From contig NZ_CP083553.1 in assembly GCF_025144465.1 (NCBI RefSeq), forward strand, positions 2,850,001-2,914,000: DNA of 64,000 bases, in the 5' to 3' direction. Shown in pieces: positions 5,712 to 60,095 of this stretch. Source of the DNA: Leisingera sp. S132. GTDB taxonomy: Bacteria; Pseudomonadota; Alphaproteobacteria; Rhodobacterales; Rhodobacteraceae. Under the pieces are notes generated by a model. That model did not search any database, was not told the DNA's origin, and was given only the letters and a program-made list of their open reading frames with translations. The stretch's first letter is position 1. Each line of letters begins with the position of its first letter. The translations under genes were made by a program, and so were the position numbers.

Positions 5712-8354
5712 ATGCCAGTAGTAGTTGTCGAATCCCCGGCCAAAGCAAAAACAATCAATAAATATCTTGGCCCCGACTATACGGTTCTGGCGTCTTACGG
5801 GCATGTGCGCGACCTGCCCGCCAAGGACGGATCGGTCGACACCGACAATGACTTCGGCATGACCTGGGAGGTCGCCAACGATTCCCGCAAGCACGTAAAG
5901 GCCATCGCCGACGCGCTGAAAGACGACAATGCGCTGATTCTCGCCACCGACCCCGACCGCGAGGGAGAGGCGATCAGCTGGCACCTGCAGGAAGCGTTGA
6001 CCAAGCGGCGCTCGATCAAGAAGGACACCGCCGTCAGCCGGGTAACCTTCAACGCGATCACCAAGGAAGCGGTGACCGAGGCGATGAAGAACCCCCGCCA
6101 GGTCGACATGCCGCTGGTCGAGGCCTATCTGGCGCGGCGCGCGCTGGACTATCTGGTCGGCTTCAACCTGTCGCCGGTCTTGTGGCGCAAGCTGCCGGGC
6201 GCGCGCTCGGCGGGCCGGGTGCAGTCCGTCTGCCTGCGGCTGATCGTTGAACGCGAGATGGAGATCGAGGCGTTCAACGCGCAGGAATACTGGTCGGTGC
6301 GCGCCAATCTGGCCACGCCGCGCGGCCAGGAATTCGAGGCGCGCCTGACCGTCATGGGCGGCGACAAGCTCGACAAATACAGCCTCAAGAACTCCACCTC
6401 TGCCGAAATGGCGGTGCAGGCGGTGGCGTCCCGCAAGCTGTCGGTGCTGTCGGTCGAGGCCAAGCCTGCGGCCCGCAACCCCTCTGCGCCCTTCATGACC
6501 TCGACCCTGCAGCAGGAGGCCAGCCGCAAGTTCGGTATGGGTGCCAAGCAATGCATGAGCGCCGCCCAGCGGCTCTATGAGGCGGGCTACATCACCTATA
6601 TGCGGACCGATGGCATCGACATGGCACCCGAAGCCGTGCAGGCCGCACGCGACGAGATTGCCAAGCGCTATGGCGCGGACTACGTGCCGTCCAGTCCGCG
6701 CATCTACAAGAACAAGGCGAAGAACGCGCAGGAAGCGCACGAGTGTATCCGCCCGACCGACATGGGCCGCGATGCCGCCTCGCTGAAGCTGACCGAAGAC
6801 GACCAGCGCAAGCTCTATGACCTGATCTGGAAGCGGACCCTCTCCTGCCAGATGGAAGGCGCCCGGCTGGAGCGCACCACCGTCGATATCGGCTCCGCCG
6901 ACCAGCAGGTCGTGCTGCGCGCAACCGGCCAGGTGGTGCTGTTTGACGGCTTCATGCGAGTCTACGAGGAAGGCCGCGACGATGTAGCGGATGAGGACGA
7001 CAAGCGCCTGCCGCAGATCATGCAGGGCGAGGCGCTGAAATTCGCATCGTCCTTGGCGGCGCAGGCGGACAAGGCCGGCAAGGATGCCTCGGTTCTGTCC
7101 GATGACGGCGCCGTGCTGGCACTGCAGCACCACACCCAGCCGCCGCCGCGCTATACCGAGGCGACCCTGGTCAAGCGGATGGAAGAGCTGGGCATCGGCC
7201 GCCCCTCGACCTATGCCTCCGTGATCACCACGATCCAGGACCGCGAATACGTCCGCAAGGAAAAGAACCGCCTGTTCCCCGAGGACAAGGGCCGGATCGT
7301 TACCATCTTCCTGCTGAACTTCTTCCGCAAATACGTCGGTTACGAATTCACCGCCAACCTGGAGGAAGAACTGGATGACGTGAGCGCCGGCGACCGCAAC
7401 TACAAGGATCTGCTGGGCCGGTTCTGGCGCGATTTCTCCGCCGCCATTTCGGAAACCTCCGACCTGCGCATCACCGAGGTGCTGGACGTGCTGGACGACG
7501 CCCTGGCGCCGCAGCTCTACCCGCCGCGCGAAGACGGCACCGATCCGCGCACCTGCCCGAAGTGCGGCGCGGGCCAGCTGCACCTCAAGACCTCGCGCAC
7601 CGGCGGGTTTGTCGGCTGCGGCAACTATCCGGAGTGCAACTACACCCGGCCGATTTCCGGCGAAGGCGCAGAAGGTTACGAACGTATTCTGGGCGAGGAC
7701 GACGGTGACGAGATCCACCTGAAGTCCGGCCGCTTCGGGCCTTATGTGCAGCGCGGTGAGGCGACGCCCGAGAACAAGAAGCCGCCACGCTCCTCGCTGC
7801 CCAAACAGGGCAAGGATTTCCTGCCCGGCTGGGGCCCGAATGAGATCACCCTGGAGCAGGCGCTGACCCTCTTGACCCTGCCGCGCGACATTGGCCAGCA
7901 CCCGGACGGCGGCGCGATCCAGTCCAACCTGGGCCGGTTCGGGCCGTATATTGCGCATCAGCTGCCGGATGAGGAAAAGCCGGTTTACGTGAACCTCAAG
8001 GAGACCCTGGACGTCTTTGAGATCGGCATGAACCGGGCGGTGGAGATGCTGGCAGAGAAACGCGCCAACCCGGGCCGCCGCGGCAGCCGGGCTGCCGCCA
8101 AGCCGCTGAAGGAGCTGGGCGAACACCCGGAAAGCGGCGGCGCCATCAACATCATGGACGGGCGCTACGGGCCGTATGTCAAATGGGAGAAGGTGAACGC
8201 CACCCTGCCCAAGGACGTGGAGCCCAAAGACGTGACCATGGAGATGGCGGTGCAGCTGATCGCCGAGAAATCCTCCAAGGGCGGCAAGAAAAAGGCGGCA
8301 GCGAAGAAGCCCGCAGCCAAGAAGAAACCTGCCGCCAAGAAAGCCTCGACCTAA
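5712..8354 (+). CDS. topA: DNA topoisomerase I
   Basis: Type IA topoisomerase that relaxes negative supercoils. It has 880 residues: an N-terminal TOPRIM domain (VVVESPAKAKTINKYLG, acidic DPDREGEA), a central domain with active-site Tyr296 in YITYMRTDG, a four-Cys zinc finger (about residues 615-640, CPKCG...CGNYPEC), and C-terminal topoisomerase repeats (two GRFGPY and one GRYGPY block). The protein ends in a Lys/Ala-rich tail typical of alphaproteobacterial TopA. Its TAA overlaps by a few bases the stop codon of the convergent tetR-type gene. Confidence 0.98.
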   Translation: MPVVVVESPAKAKTINKYLGPDYTVLASYGHVRDLPAKDGSVDTDNDFGMTWEVANDSRKHVKAIADALKDDNALILATDPDREGEAISWHLQEALTKRRSIKKDTAVSRVTFNAITKEAVTEAMKNPRQVDMPLVEAYLARRALDYLVGFNLSPVLWRKLPGARSAGRVQSVCLRLIVEREMEIEAFNAQEYWSVRANLATPRGQEFEARLTVMGGDKLDKYSLKNSTSAEMAVQAVASRKLSVLSVEAKPAARNPSAPFMTSTLQQEASRKFGMGAKQCMSAAQRLYEAGYITYMRTDGIDMAPEAVQAARDEIAKRYGADYVPSSPRIYKNKAKNAQEAHECIRPTDMGRDAASLKLTEDDQRKLYDLIWKRTLSCQMEGARLERTTVDIGSADQQVVLRATGQVVLFDGFMRVYEEGRDDVADEDDKRLPQIMQGEALKFASSLAAQADKAGKDASVLSDDGAVLALQHHTQPPPRYTEATLVKRMEELGIGRPSTYASVITTIQDREYVRKEKNRLFPEDKGRIVTIFLLNFFRKYVGYEFTANLEEELDDVSAGDRNYKDLLGRFWRDFSAAISETSDLRITEVLDVLDDALAPQLYPPREDGTDPRTCPKCGAGQLHLKTSRTGGFVGCGNYPECNYTRPISGEGAEGYERILGEDDGDEIHLKSGRFGPYVQRGEATPENKKPPRSSLPKQGKDFLPGWGPNEITLEQALTLLTLPRDIGQHPDGGAIQSNLGRFGPYIAHQLPDEEKPVYVNLKETLDVFEIGMNRAVEMLAEKRANPGRRGSRAAAKPLKELGEHPESGGAINIMDGRYGPYVKWEKVNATLPKDVEPKDVTMEMAVQLIAEKSSKGGKKKAAAKKPAAKKKPAAKKAST

Positions 8355-55929: not shown

Positions 55930-55944
55930 TTAACGCTTCGTTAA
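55930..55944. promoter_or_regulatory. CtrA-type box upstream of the 124-residue unknown gene
   Basis: TTAACGCTTCGTTAA, a perfect TTAA-N7-TTAA, also matching the stricter TTAAC-N5-GTTAAC form. It is 80 bases before the ATG at 56024 and 76 bases from the divergent ogt start. Confidence 0.7.
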
Positions 55945-56023
55945 CCAGTGCTAAAGGTTTCTCACCAGGTTGTCTCAAATTCTACTAAAGTGAGTTTCAA
56001 GAACAGAGTAAAAGGCAAGTCCG

Positions 56024-56398
56024 ATGTTTACAGCAACCTCCAGCACCGCCGGCCTCTACAACGGCATGAAGCAGCTTCAGGCGTTCCGCCAGAAGGTGCC
56101 GGCGGCTGCAACTGCGGACGGTGCCAATGCGGATGCCTCTCTCCATTATGCCGCGACCCAGAAGGCGGGGCGGGACGCCCAGAAGGCCGGCAGCCCTGCT
56201 GACGCCCTGACGTCCGGCTATATCGGCCCGGCCCTCGAAGCTTCGCGGAAAGAAGCGCTGGAGCCGCGCCCGGACCAGGGCTTCGACATGGATGCGTACT
56301 ATCAGGATCTGATGAACGGCTGCCAGGCCGGCCCCAAGCCGATCAGTCATATGGCCGCGGAAGCGAACTATGCCAAGGTTCAGAAAATCATCGCCTGA
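56024..56398 (+). CDS. Unknown 124-residue protein with a CtrA-type promoter box
   Basis: I do not recognise this protein. It is soluble and helical-looking (LYNGMKQLQAFRQKVPAAA, then ALEASRKEALEPRPDQGFDMDAYYQDLMNG) and ends in HMAAEANYAKVQKIIA. There is no signal peptide or span. AAAAGG precedes the ATG. A full CtrA-type box lies 80 bases upstream, so it is probably a member of the cell-cycle or motility regulon. It runs in the same direction as a second unknown gene with two such boxes. Confidence 0.75.
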   Translation: MFTATSSTAGLYNGMKQLQAFRQKVPAAATADGANADASLHYAATQKAGRDAQKAGSPADALTSGYIGPALEASRKEALEPRPDQGFDMDAYYQDLMNGCQAGPKPISHMAAEANYAKVQKIIA

Positions 56399-56462
56399 GC
56401 GGCGGCGGTGGGGGCAAGTGCCCCGCTGTCTGCACCGCACCGGCCTCTGCCCGCAGCGGCTG

Positions 56463-56477
56463 TTAACCCGCTGTTAA
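56463..56477. promoter_or_regulatory. First CtrA-type box upstream of the 116-residue unknown gene
   Basis: TTAACCCGCTGTTAA, a perfect TTAA-N7-TTAA and TTAAC-N5-GTTAA, 61-75 bases before the ATG at 56538. Confidence 0.68.
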
Positions 56478-56487
56478 GCCTGTTGTG

Positions 56488-56502
56488 TTAAAACCGTTTT
56501 AA
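56488..56502. promoter_or_regulatory. Second CtrA-type box upstream of the 116-residue unknown gene
   Basis: TTAAAACCGTTTTAA, a second TTAA-N7-TTAA 25 bases downstream of the first box (start to start) and itself a near-perfect dyad. It is 36 bases before the ATG at 56538. Confidence 0.6.
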
Positions 56503-56537
56503 GATCGGTTCAATGCCTCTGCGAAGGACCTTCTGTG

Positions 56538-56888
56538 ATGTTTATACCAGTTTCTGGACGTGTAGATCCTATCAAGCCGAACCGCGGTTTCCTGACCGCC
56601 CGGCCCGTCGTGCGCTCTGACGACCCGGACAAGAGTGAATCCGCCGACAACAGGCCGCGCGGGCAGGAAGAGCACACCCAGGACAACCTGCATCCGGAGG
56701 GCGGCGCCCCCATCTGGGACACTCCCGGACAGGAAACGCCCGGTTCAGCCGAAGAGCTGTTTCATGAAAATGCCGTGCTGGCAGAGCACCTGCTGCTGCA
56801 GCGCGCCTGGCCTGCGAACCGGATCACCCCGGGTGAGGTAAAGGCCGCCTATCACGGCTATCAGGAGGCCAGGTCGCTGACGGCCTGA
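56538..56888 (+). CDS. Unknown 116-residue protein with two CtrA-type boxes
   Basis: An acidic, probably flexible protein: FIPVSGRVDPIKPNRGFLTARP at the start, a hydrophilic middle rich in Asp, Glu, Pro and Gly (about 28-70), and a C-terminal helical part (AEELFHENAVLAEHLLLQRAW then TPGEVKAAYHGYQEA). I cannot name a family. AAGGA upstream could serve either a GTG at 56535 or the ATG at 56538. It faces the convergent LysM solute-binding gene. Confidence 0.75.
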   Translation: MFIPVSGRVDPIKPNRGFLTARPVVRSDDPDKSESADNRPRGQEEHTQDNLHPEGGAPIWDTPGQETPGSAEELFHENAVLAEHLLLQRAWPANRITPGEVKAAYHGYQEARSLTA

Positions 56889-56907
56889 CCTCGCTCCGCT
56901 GCTTGCC

Positions 56908-57930
56908 TTACTGCAGCTGCGCCCAGAAGAGTTCCAGGTGGCGCGACATGATTTCCTCAAACCGGCCGCTGTCGCGCAGCTTCTGCAGGCCCGCGTTGAT
57001 CCGGTAAAGATGGGTGGTGCCGCGCCAGTGGCGCTTGGAAATCACCACATGCAGGCCTTCCTCAGACAGCGGCTTCTCCAGCGGCACCACAGTGTCGCGC
57101 AGGTTTTCCGCGACGATCGTGTTGGCACCCAGGAACAAGTTCACCGCCGCCGCATCCACCTGGCCGTCTGCCACCATGCGAAAACAATCCGCCGGGGTCG
57201 CGGGCTGAACCAGCCCGATCTTTTCCTCGGCCAGCCAGCGCCGGTCCGGGCGGTTCAGGTCATGGGTGAAATACCCCGCTGGCCGGCACAGGGTCTTGCC
57301 TTCGACGTCCGTGTCTGCGGTGTATTCAAACCCGCCGCCGGCCCGCACGAACAGCATGATCGGCATCGTCATGACCGGCTCGGAGAAATGGAATTTGACG
57401 CAGCGCTCGTTGCCCGGTTCCGCCGCGCAATCGGGCTTGAGCCAGGGGAAGCCCATGTCGAACTCCTTCTTGTCCAGCATCGGGAACAGATGTTTGGACC
57501 AGTCGTCCTCCCAGCTGACGGAATAACTGACCGGCGCGGGCGCCAGTTCCAGCGCGGCGTTGATCAGCTCCGTTACCATCCCCTGCCCGGGCAAGCCGCG
57601 GTCGGTGAAGGGGCCGTAGCCGCTGCCGGTGAGCAGCGTCAGCTCTGCCTTTTCCTGCCGCAGCGGCGTGGCATCCGGCGCGGTGGCGCCGGTGATGCAG
57701 GGAATGAACAGCTTGCGTCCCGGCAGCACAGTGGCACCGGCGAGCAGTTTCTGGTTTGCGTAGTAAACCATGGTCCAGCGGTTGCGGTCGCCATAGTGGG
57801 TCTCCGCGATTGTGAACAGCGAGTCGCCGGGCTGCGCCACGTAGTCCACGTCGCAAATCGCCCAGGCCGCGGCCGGCGCCAGGGTGAACAGGGCGGCCAG
57901 CTGGCAGAGGCGTGAGAAAAGACGTCTCAT
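56908..57930 (-). CDS. Secreted LysM-solute-binding domain fusion protein A
   Basis: A 340-residue exported protein: signal peptide (about 1-24, AAAWA), LysM domain (about 29-77, YVAQPGDSLFTIAETHYG, flanked by Cys26 and Cys78), then a type 2 periplasmic binding domain of the HisJ/amino-acid class (about 95-335). Further cysteines Cys168, Cys177, Cys215 and Cys249 recur in the neighbouring paralogue, suggesting disulfides. It should bind cell wall through LysM and a small ligand through the second domain. No permease is encoded nearby. It is the last of three genes, 14 bases after its paralogue. Confidence 0.85.
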   Translation of the reverse strand: MRRLFSRLCQLAALFTLAPAAAWAICDVDYVAQPGDSLFTIAETHYGDRNRWTMVYYANQKLLAGATVLPGRKLFIPCITGATAPDATPLRQEKAELTLLTGSGYGPFTDRGLPGQGMVTELINAALELAPAPVSYSVSWEDDWSKHLFPMLDKKEFDMGFPWLKPDCAAEPGNERCVKFHFSEPVMTMPIMLFVRAGGGFEYTADTDVEGKTLCRPAGYFTHDLNRPDRRWLAEEKIGLVQPATPADCFRMVADGQVDAAAVNLFLGANTIVAENLRDTVVPLEKPLSEEGLHVVISKRHWRGTTHLYRINAGLQKLRDSGRFEEIMSRHLELFWAQLQ

Positions 57931-57944
57931 ACAGGCATCCTCCC

Positions 57945-59024
57945 TCAGAACCCGGCCCAGATCCGGGCCATGTGGTCTTCGACGATGGTCTGGTAGCTGC
58001 CGTTCTCCTGGATCGAGCGCAGGCCCTTGTTGATCATCGCCAGCATTTCATCCGCGCGCGGATGGGTCTTGTGCACCACCACATAGATTCCCAGCACCGA
58101 CAGCGGCTGCGGCAGCACGGTGAACTGATCAGCGATGCCCGCTTCCTTCATCACGCTGCGGCCGGTGAATTCATTGATCGCCACCGCATCCGCCTCGCCG
58201 GCGGCCACCATGTCAAAGCAGTCCTTCACCTTGTGCGGCTGTTTCAGGGTGATCTTCTTCTCCGCAATCCAGTTGCGGCCGCGCTCATCCAGGTCAAAGG
58301 TCAGGTAGCCGGCCGGGCGGCACAGGGTCTTGCCCTCGATGTCGCTGTCGCTGGTGAACACAAACGGCCGGTCCTTATGCGCAAACAGCAGCATCAGGGT
58401 TTCGAACATCGGTTCGGAGAAGTGGAAGTTCTGGCAGCGGTAACTGTCCGGCATGGTGCCGCAGTCGGGCTTGTACCAAGGGAAACCCAGATCCAGCAGC
58501 GCGTTGGACAGCAGCGGGTCGAAATGCGAGGACCAGTCGTTGACCCAGTGGATCGCATAGCCCTCAGCCGGGGCGGCCTGGGTCATGGCAGCATTCACCA
58601 CCTCGGTGATCAGGCCGCCGTTGTGCGACGCCTTGGAGGTGAATGGCGCATAGTCGTCGCCGGTCAGCAAGTTGATTTTCTGGCGCACCGCCGCGTTGCC
58701 CGGCGCGACCTTGACCGGCACCGCAGATGCGGGGGCGGCGGCGGAGATGTCCTTGCCGCCTGGCAGGCCCAGCGGCAGGCCTTCGAGGCAGGCCAGCGAG
58801 AGCTTCATGCCGACCCGGATCGCGCCTGGCTTGGGGCCGATCTGGTCGATGTTACGGCTATGGATGGCGCTCCACTTGCCTGCGTCCTTGTAGAGCTTGT
58901 CGGCAATCACCGACAGGCTGTCGCCGGACTGCACGGTATAGATGCCGCCGCAGGTTTCAGCAGCGGCGGCGGTGGCGAACAGGCCGGACAGCCCGATAGC
59001 GGCGGCGGCAAATAAGGTTTTCAT
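57945..59024 (-). CDS. Secreted LysM-solute-binding domain fusion protein B
   Basis: A 359-residue paralogue of the next gene, in the same order: signal peptide (about 1-22, AAAAE), LysM (about 28-79, YTVQSGDSLSVIADKLY, flanked by Cys25 and Cys79), a Ala/Pro-rich linker longer than in A (about 85-112), and the solute-binding domain (about 115-355). Shared blocks are HFSEP, EGKTLCRPAGY and FPWxKPDC. The start ATG at 59024 is preceded by CCGGGGGGAACC; the frame further upstream is not protein-like. Tandem duplication is clear. Confidence 0.85.
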   Translation of the reverse strand: MKTLFAAAAIGLSGLFATAAAAETCGGIYTVQSGDSLSVIADKLYKDAGKWSAIHSRNIDQIGPKPGAIRVGMKLSLACLEGLPLGLPGGKDISAAAPASAVPVKVAPGNAAVRQKINLLTGDDYAPFTSKASHNGGLITEVVNAAMTQAAPAEGYAIHWVNDWSSHFDPLLSNALLDLGFPWYKPDCGTMPDSYRCQNFHFSEPMFETLMLLFAHKDRPFVFTSDSDIEGKTLCRPAGYLTFDLDERGRNWIAEKKITLKQPHKVKDCFDMVAAGEADAVAINEFTGRSVMKEAGIADQFTVLPQPLSVLGIYVVVHKTHPRADEMLAMINKGLRSIQENGSYQTIVEDHMARIWAGF

Positions 59025-59160
59025 GGTTCCCCCCGGAAGTGTGCAGCGCTTGATCCGCTGATTTGGCGGGCAGCGCTTGCTGTTTTGTTGCTGATTGAGG
59101 TCCGCGGGCAATGCTGCGGCCCGCGTGGCGGCGCCTGTCCGGCGCCGCAGGTGATGGATC

Positions 59161-59916
59161 TTAGTTGCCGACGAACAGCGCCAGCAGCGTTGCGGTATCC
59201 ACCCGTCCGCCGGCACCGATCAGGCTTGCCGGAACGGTGATCTCCTGCCGCTCATAGGCGCCGTTCACCAGCTGGTCGATATAGGCCGCGGACTGGCCCT
59301 GCGCGGCGGCGGTCGCCACCATCTTGTAAAGCGCCGACCCCTCGGCGGCCGCAACGGGCGTCTCCGGGACCGCCGCGGCTGGCTGGGCCTGCTTGCTGCG
59401 CAGGGCAGCCAGCGTGCCTTCGGTGATGCGGGCGACCAGTGCAACCTCGCCGCTGGACGCAGAGCCGTCGAGCCCCGCTGCCGCCGCGGCCCCTGCGGGC
59501 AGCTCAGCCGCGGCCTGCGCCGGCTGCAGCGATGCCGCCGGCTGATCCGCTGCTGGCGCACTGCCGCCGAACTGGAAGTAGAGCAGCATGGCAGAGGCAA
59601 CCGCCAGCCCCGCGGCGGCGAGACCCAGCTTCGGCAGTGCAGAGGCGCCGTCTGCCCCCAAAGGCGCAAACGGCTGCGGATCCATGACCGGTTCGGGCTT
59701 TGCGGGGGCGGGTTTCACAGCGCAGACCGGGCTGGCCTCCTTGGCGGTGCCGGCAGCCGCAGCAGCCGCGGGCTTTGCCTTGACCGGCCCCGCGCTGGCG
59801 GCGACCAAACCGATTTTGATATTCTTTGGTGCCGACACCCCGTCAATCCGGATTGCCGCGCCGCGCGCTTTGCCAGGCTCGGCCGCCGGCTGCGCATCCG
59901 CTTTCAGCTTCAGCAT
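59161..59916 (-). CDS. Unknown one-span Ala/Pro-rich membrane protein
   Basis: A 251-residue protein with no recognised domain. A cytoplasmic Ala/Pro/Lys-rich part (1-95) contains AAIRIDGVSAPKNIKIGLVA, then one span (about 96-115, LGLAAAGLAVASAMLLYFQF), an Ala/Gln-rich periplasmic linker, and a C-terminal helical end (YKMVATAAAQGQSAAYIDQLVNGAYERQEITVPA). AGGGGG lies before the ATG at 59916; an ATG at 59943 is possible. A CtrA-type box is 59 bases upstream. It leads the row to the two LysM proteins, with 136 bases to the next. Confidence 0.72.
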   Translation of the reverse strand: MLKLKADAQPAAEPGKARGAAIRIDGVSAPKNIKIGLVAASAGPVKAKPAAAAAAGTAKEASPVCAVKPAPAKPEPVMDPQPFAPLGADGASALPKLGLAAAGLAVASAMLLYFQFGGSAPAADQPAASLQPAQAAAELPAGAAAAAGLDGSASSGEVALVARITEGTLAALRSKQAQPAAAVPETPVAAAEGSALYKMVATAAAQGQSAAYIDQLVNGAYERQEITVPASLIGAGGRVDTATLLALFVGN

Positions 59917-59974
59917 TGAAATTTGCCCCCTGCCCCATGCCATTTTCTGAAATGACGTAAAAATCTACATGGAA

Positions 59975-59989
59975 TTAACGAATTCTTAA
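59975..59989. promoter_or_regulatory. CtrA-type box upstream of the LysM cluster
   Basis: TTAACGAATTCTTAA, a perfect TTAA-N7-TTAA, followed by CCA as in the CtrA half site TTAACCAT. It is 59 bases before the minus-strand ATG at 59916. Confidence 0.68.
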
Positions 59990-60095
59990 CCAATTGTGGA
60001 AAACCGGTCAACATCTAGAGGAATCCACCGCAGGCAAACACAAGGCATTTCTCGGATAGCGTGTGGAAAATGACGCAACAATAGCGCAAAAATGA

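Follow-up and report, generated by a model that had tools for sequence, protein, structure and literature searches.

Conserved CtrA-type boxes upstream of three unannotated Leisingera genes predict new candidate members of the CtrA regulon

Four full CtrA-type boxes (TTAA-N7-TTAA) within a 64-kb stretch of the Leisingera sp. S132 genome are predicted here to be binding sites of phosphorylated CtrA, and the genes behind them, namely P1, P2, and the P260-LysM/solute-binding genes, are likely to belong to the CtrA regulon. CtrA, a bacterial cell-cycle regulator, acts in many Alphaproteobacteria as the master switch governing motility and differentiation. Passages in three earlier papers document TTAA-N7-TTAA as its full site (PMC4287350, PMC6180460, PMC4046655). 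The stretch, hereafter the window, covers positions 2850001-2914000 of contig C1 (NZ_CP083553.1) in a 4.69-Mb genome of seven contigs. The genes around the boxes are arranged in the order xerC, a CDP-alcohol phosphatidyltransferase-like gene (which we take to be pcs-like), ogt, P1, P2, SBP1, SBP2, P260, and ileS, where ogt and the last four genes lie on the minus strand. The elements of this locus are as follows (window positions).

55930-55944, plus strand: full CtrA-type box of P1, TTAACGCTTCGTTAA, in the intergenic region between the divergent genes ogt and P1
55951-55954, plus strand: CTAA, a possible third half-site six bases past the P1 box, present as CTAA or TTAA in 18 of 21 genomes of the genus
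55975-55993, plus strand: TCAAATT-N4-TAAAGTGA, a possible P1 core promoter, nearly invariant in the 21 genomes
56024-56398, plus strand: P1, 124 amino acids, present in all 21 genomes; ratio of nonsynonymous to synonymous substitution rates (dN/dS) 0.10-0.43 in eight pairs
56463-56477, plus strand: P2 box A, full, TTAACCCGCTGTTAA, perfect in 14 of the 17 P2-bearing genomes
56488-56502, plus strand: P2 box B, full, TTAAAACCGTTTTAA, beginning 25 bases after the start of box A, perfect in 10 of the 17
56535-56888, plus strand: P2, 116-117 amino acids (start at GTG 56535 or ATG 56538), present in 17 of the 21 genomes; dN/dS 0.17-0.39 in eight pairs
56908-57930, minus strand: SBP1, LysM plus family-3 solute-binding-like protein, probably periplasmic, with weak Pfam and NCBIfam matches
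57945-59024, minus strand: SBP2, SBP1 paralogue, 41% identical to SBP1
59161-59916, minus strand: P260, 251 amino acids from ATG 59916, present in all 21 genomes, without a family
59975-59989, minus strand: full box of P260, TTAAGAATTCGTTAA, found also outside the genus in genome G119 and on a Phaeobacter sp. G2 plasmid, and not in genome G108
60006-60011, minus strand: TTGACC, the probable -35 element of P260, 17 bases from TAAGAA (59983-59988) inside the box

The original prediction had placed full sites at these four positions; all proved exact, and none further was found anywhere in the window. It had also put each box 36 to 80 bases before a gene, which agrees within a few bases with the measured distances of 79 bases for P1, 35 and 60 for P2 (to ATG 56538; 32 and 57 to GTG 56535), and 58 for P260 (to ATG 59916, a start common to all 21 genomes). 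It had further counted three of the four boxes as fitting the TTAAC-N5 or GTTAA form; two carry the full TTAAC-N5-GTTAA, the box at 59975 has TTAAC on one side only, and the box at 56488 has neither. The statement that the neighboring genes are all uncharacterized held in part. P1 and P260 had no match in Pfam or NCBIfam, and P2 had no family above the cut-off in either, its one chance-level Pfam match (E 0.097) lying under it; however, ogt was assigned by a Pfam match above the cut-off, and P2 and P260 are separated by two LysM/solute-binding-like genes.

We compared the locus in 21 genomes of the genus (the window, L016 from G017, and L057-L075). The order ogt-P1-(P2)-SBP1-SBP2-P260-ileS was kept in all of them, with neither P2 nor its boxes present in four (G006, G007, G019, and G020). 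Conservation of the boxes in orthologous regions, on which the original prediction had been staked, was observed within the genus: P1 has a perfect upstream box in 20 of 21 genomes (the exception is G007), P2 has one or two in 16 of 17 P2-bearing genomes (the exception is G011), and P260 has one in 21 of 21. Column conservation was calculated for the P1 and P260 promoters. In the ungapped stack, the TTAA columns reached 0.99 at the P1 box and 1.00 at the P260 box (8 of 8 invariant), the seven inner columns 0.72 and 0.91, and the remaining columns 0.68 and 0.76, respectively; the core of the P260 box is thus well conserved too, not its arms alone. In the 20 genomes with a P1 box, the distance from the box was nearly fixed toward P1 (78-80 bases) and variable toward ogt (74-109 bases). 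P1 is therefore the likely target of its box, and ogt was rejected as the main target on the same distances.

The proteins themselves have diverged considerably, with lowest identities to the window copy of 42% for P1, 50% for P2, and 47% for P260 among the genus genomes, and all three are under purifying selection (dN/dS 0.10-0.43 overall, eight pairs each). The corresponding identities of the neighbors are 89-98% for xerC, the pcs-like gene, and ileS, 76-97% for ogt, 69-97% for SBP1, and 60-98% for SBP2. A relative of P1 in Leisingera sp. SS27 shows 80% identity. In P2, the N-terminal stretch of about 36 residues is strongly conserved across the 16 intact copies aligned. The P2 copy of G001 (L057 9147-9398) is broken by an apparent frameshift, yet its box B is perfect; this copy was left out of the P2 alignment and the dN/dS calculation, and its boxes were counted. 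An alignment of P260, judged by eye, shows a conserved N-terminal stretch, a probable single membrane helix, and a conserved C-terminal domain.

The genome encodes a Rhodobacterales-type CtrA (NF045991, 430 bits against a cut-off of 350). Outside the window it contains 20 full sites at 18 places, and ten proteins picked from behind them were compared with Pfam, five of them also with NCBIfam. One such site lies upstream of a CckA-like gene in all 21 genus genomes, with the 15 bases identical in 19; the best NCBIfam matches of the N-terminal piece of this gene are CckA models, under the whole-protein cut-off. Another lies before a gene with Pfam MotB_plug above the cut-off, and a third before a PAS_5 protein whose best NCBIfam match, MopJ, is under the cut-off. 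Further genes behind full sites encode a PAS_7 protein, two Hint-domain proteins, a trypsin-like protein, and a Ser/Thr kinase. The L078 protein, in which only PAS domains were found, is presumably DivL-like. Separately, three overlapping full boxes, made up of four TTAA half-sites at exact 11-base steps, were seen at C1:1773936-1773972 (L009 1501-1537), with no obvious target gene.

These sites fit in part with what is described for the order. Earlier work predicted that CtrA controls cckA and divL in Rhodobacterales (PMC2877005, PMC4046655), the core CtrA targets are flagellar genes, and the shared Rhodobacterales regulon known so far is mainly flagellar (PMC12363192). The Phaeobacter inhibens and Dinoroseobacter shibae regulons (PMC12363192, PMC4046655) come from the same order, and here, too, a site lies before CckA-like and MotB-like genes; the targets named in those passages are flagellar, chemotaxis, c-di-GMP (cyclic di-guanosine monophosphate), and quorum-sensing genes, and the term LysM does not occur in the main text of either paper. 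Overall, the conservation of the boxes, the presence of a Rhodobacterales-type CtrA, and the sites before the CckA-like and MotB-like genes indicate that the four boxes are very probably CtrA sites.

Two explanations without CtrA were weighed. One is that the boxes arose by chance, or reflect AT-rich conserved promoters in general with no specific binder, which we regard as highly improbable. Because the reversed pattern AATT-N7-AATT is commoner genome-wide than TTAA-N7-TTAA (46 versus 24 sites), the genome-wide count alone is weak evidence, and the case rests on conservation and local spacing. Shuffling of the window gave a mean of 0.02 sites and never more than one (100 shuffles) versus the four observed, and when the 24 sites were placed randomly, four within 4060 bases appeared in 0 of 20,000 trials, a calculation that takes the sites as independent, which the tandem ones are not. 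TTAA pairs in the window number four at spacing 7 and at most one at each other spacing from 3 to 15. Over the same spacings in the 21 orthologous loci (309,521 bases), there are 68 pairs at spacing 7 (not independent, as 65 are the four window places repeated in relatives and 3 lie elsewhere), 15 at spacing 10, which is the gap separating the two P2 boxes, 7 at spacing 6, and 0-2 elsewhere. AATT control pairs peak in these loci too, with 17 at spacing 4, 14 at 7, and 19 at 15, although each peak corresponds to about one conserved place and one kept pair is counted up to 21 times. The chance explanation also draws some support from the stretch upstream of P260, which is conserved beyond the box itself, whereas at P1 the arms are kept while the core and flanks vary. 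TTAA pairs equally conserved at several other spacings, which would have favored this explanation, were not seen, and it is strongly disfavored. The other is that a different OmpR-type response regulator with a CtrA-like motif binds the sites. Candidates exist, since 11 other proteins of the genome match nearly the whole CtrA-type regulator profile, all under the cut-off; however, sites of the same form precede the CckA-like gene throughout the genus and the MotB-like gene, and the pattern is the documented CtrA full site, so that this reading appears unlikely.

The genes and their boxes were also examined outside the genus. A P1 profile search of 295 family genomes, two of them in the genus (the first pass scored some of the candidates per genome), found P1 in two other genera (G237 and G119), where it adjoins an ileS-like frame with no P260 between them; P1 was not found in the plasmid collection searched, and P2 gave one weak, broken match outside the genus. 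P260-type matches occur in 24 of 198 family genomes, own included (single-sequence search). The P260 box recurs at two of three loci outside the genus, namely in G119 and on the Phaeobacter sp. G2 plasmid CP104105.1 (L107). The row P260-SBP2-SBP1 is found in G119, with the box upstream, and in G108, with no box and only the start of SBP1 within the locus. On the plasmid the same row is preceded by a full box, 71 bases from the annotated start, and its neighborhood includes annotated cheD, cheB, and chemotaxis receptor genes. Labels of ileS, rhodanese-like, and GTPase genes in relatives' loci were given by eye or by BLAST to window genes rather than by profile.

Several observations weigh against the CtrA reading. 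The genus genomes are related, so the 21 are not independent tests, and the P260 box region and the box of the CckA-like gene are conserved as wholes. A full box precedes P1 at neither of the two loci outside the genus: G237 has TTAA half-sites only, and G119 has no TTAA in 3.3 kb. P260 of G108 has TTGAC without a box. Among the ten proteins behind other full sites, eight have a Pfam match and two have no family. The full site at L079 overlaps a reading frame at its 3' end, and therefore not every full site marks a promoter. The AlphaFold models are poor, with a predicted local distance difference test score (pLDDT) of 51 for P1 and 58 for P2, and neither LysM nor solute-binding is mentioned in the main text of the paper on the CtrA regulon of P. 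inhibens (PMC12363192).

If the boxes are bound by CtrA, each of the three promoters would be served by its own box or boxes. At P1 and P2, CtrA would most likely act as an activator; neither promoter has a recognizable -35, which fits dependence on CtrA. At P260, the putative promoter is TTGAC-N17-TAAnAA, with TTGAC present in all 21 genus genomes as well as in G119, G108, and the Phaeobacter plasmid. Because the box overlaps the -10, CtrA bound there would occlude this start; a second, more downstream start could be activated by it in addition. A precedent is found in Caulobacter, where, according to passages in PMC4287350 and PMC6180460, activation comes from full sites near -35 and repression from half sites over -10, and a single full site, at -39 of the ctrA P2 promoter and -14 of the ctrA P3 promoter, serves both. 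The boxes described here share the palindrome and spacing of the Caulobacter full-site promoters (PMC4287350, as far as its text was available), and their positions fit activation or -10 occlusion as at ctrA P3. Unlike in Caulobacter, the P1 box would lie well upstream of the -35 if the conserved TAAAGT is the -10 (the starts being read from sequence), and P2 has two tandem full boxes. As judged by eye, the TCAAATT-N4-TAAAGTGA element of P1 is partly kept in G237 and G119, both without a full box at P1, and no known motif was assigned to it. Two other candidates were rejected: a FliA-type promoter at P1 (a poor match by eye), and a DnaA box in the P260 promoter, where the TTTTCCACA-like stretch is not shared by every relative.

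The products of the two genes between P2 and P260 show a weak resemblance to ligand-binding proteins. SBP1 scored 22.5 bits for SBP_bac_3 (cut-off 26.4) and 28.6 bits for a LysM-type NCBIfam model (cut-off 134); SBP2 scored 24.9 bits for SBP_bac_3 (cut-off 26.4) and 19.9 bits for LysM (cut-off 20.9), and its weak PDB matches are amino-acid-binding proteins. No ABC permease or ATPase genes lie beside them; they are flanked by P2 (or P1) and P260 in all 21 genus loci. A search with SBP2 found one further LysM/solute-binding pair in the genome, on contig C6, where the LysM match of one paralogue reaches 30.9 bits, above the cut-off. This pair belongs to a row of Ser/Thr kinase, SBP, SBP, FHA, PP2C, and putative GTPase genes (L109, contig C6 50000-66000), and a full box lies 60 bases upstream of the kinase gene (L109 box at 7464). 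Hence, both LysM/solute-binding pairs of the genome sit in gene rows starting with a full box. When 16 genus genomes (own included) were searched together with ten others, kinases of the C6 type (at least 83% identity) were found in five genus genomes, and the box was present in 5 of 5, own included, with nearly identical surroundings. Seven of the 14 distant kinase matches were checked, and none had a box within the stretch available; a Ruegeria conchae plasmid with related genes has no full box within 13 kb. By description, SBP1 and SBP2 are like Dshi_2138 of D. shibae, a LysM protein predicted to be periplasmic, which the available part of PMC7901474 reports as the most abundant vesicle membrane protein of that species, of unknown function. 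Unlike Dshi_2138, they have an extra family-3 solute-binding-like domain and are paired behind P260.

Elsewhere in the family, the P260 C-terminal domain was seen by eye to share one frame with a LysM-like end and to follow a rhodanese-like frame at 9 of 10 loci (L085-L087, L089, L091, L094, and L097-L099); 12 loci were inspected, the other two being P260-SBP rows. These same-frame loci suggest that P260 and the LysM proteins may act together.

The original prediction had described the segment as an undescribed CtrA-regulated module. The part concerning CtrA-regulated genes is well supported by the conserved boxes, the CtrA of the genome, and the sites before the CckA-like and MotB-like genes. 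The claim of a single functional module is unsupported, because each gene has its own box or boxes and because P1 and the P260 row do not lie together in other genera or on the plasmid. These same facts are what one would expect if P1 and P260 were separate CtrA targets that are neighbors by chance, with the second P2 box being incidental, as its perfect state in only 10 of 17 genomes would allow. We consider this quite possible, if not the favored view: the gene order from ogt to ileS is kept throughout the genus (P2 missing in four), and one or the other P2 box is perfect in 16 of 17 genomes. It is compatible with CtrA binding and opposes the module claim only.

Returning to the reading of the boxes as CtrA sites, P260 may be anchored in the membrane and work with two periplasmic proteins that bind both peptidoglycan and a ligand, which is the weakest step of the proposed mechanism. 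CtrA would then couple a module for envelope sensing or attachment to the motile/differentiation program, which P1 and P2 would serve as small and largely flexible accessory proteins. A broader proposal, which is speculative and on balance improbable, is that CtrA commands an undescribed roseobacter envelope-sensing system. In such a system, peptidoglycan-anchored ligand-binding pairs would work, in place of an ABC importer, with P260 or with the Ser/Thr kinase-FHA-phosphatase set, and P260 would be switched inversely to, or timed with, P1 and P2, since its box overlaps its own -10. No description of an envelope or sensing branch of the CtrA regulon was found in the open-license literature searched.

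Overall, these findings suggest that P1, P2, and P260 are very probably new, so far unannotated candidate members of the already known CtrA regulon. Their CtrA-type boxes show tighter conservation than the proteins, so that these genes are clear candidates, and the location of both LysM/solute-binding pairs of the genome behind boxes points to a possible envelope or sensing branch of this regulon.

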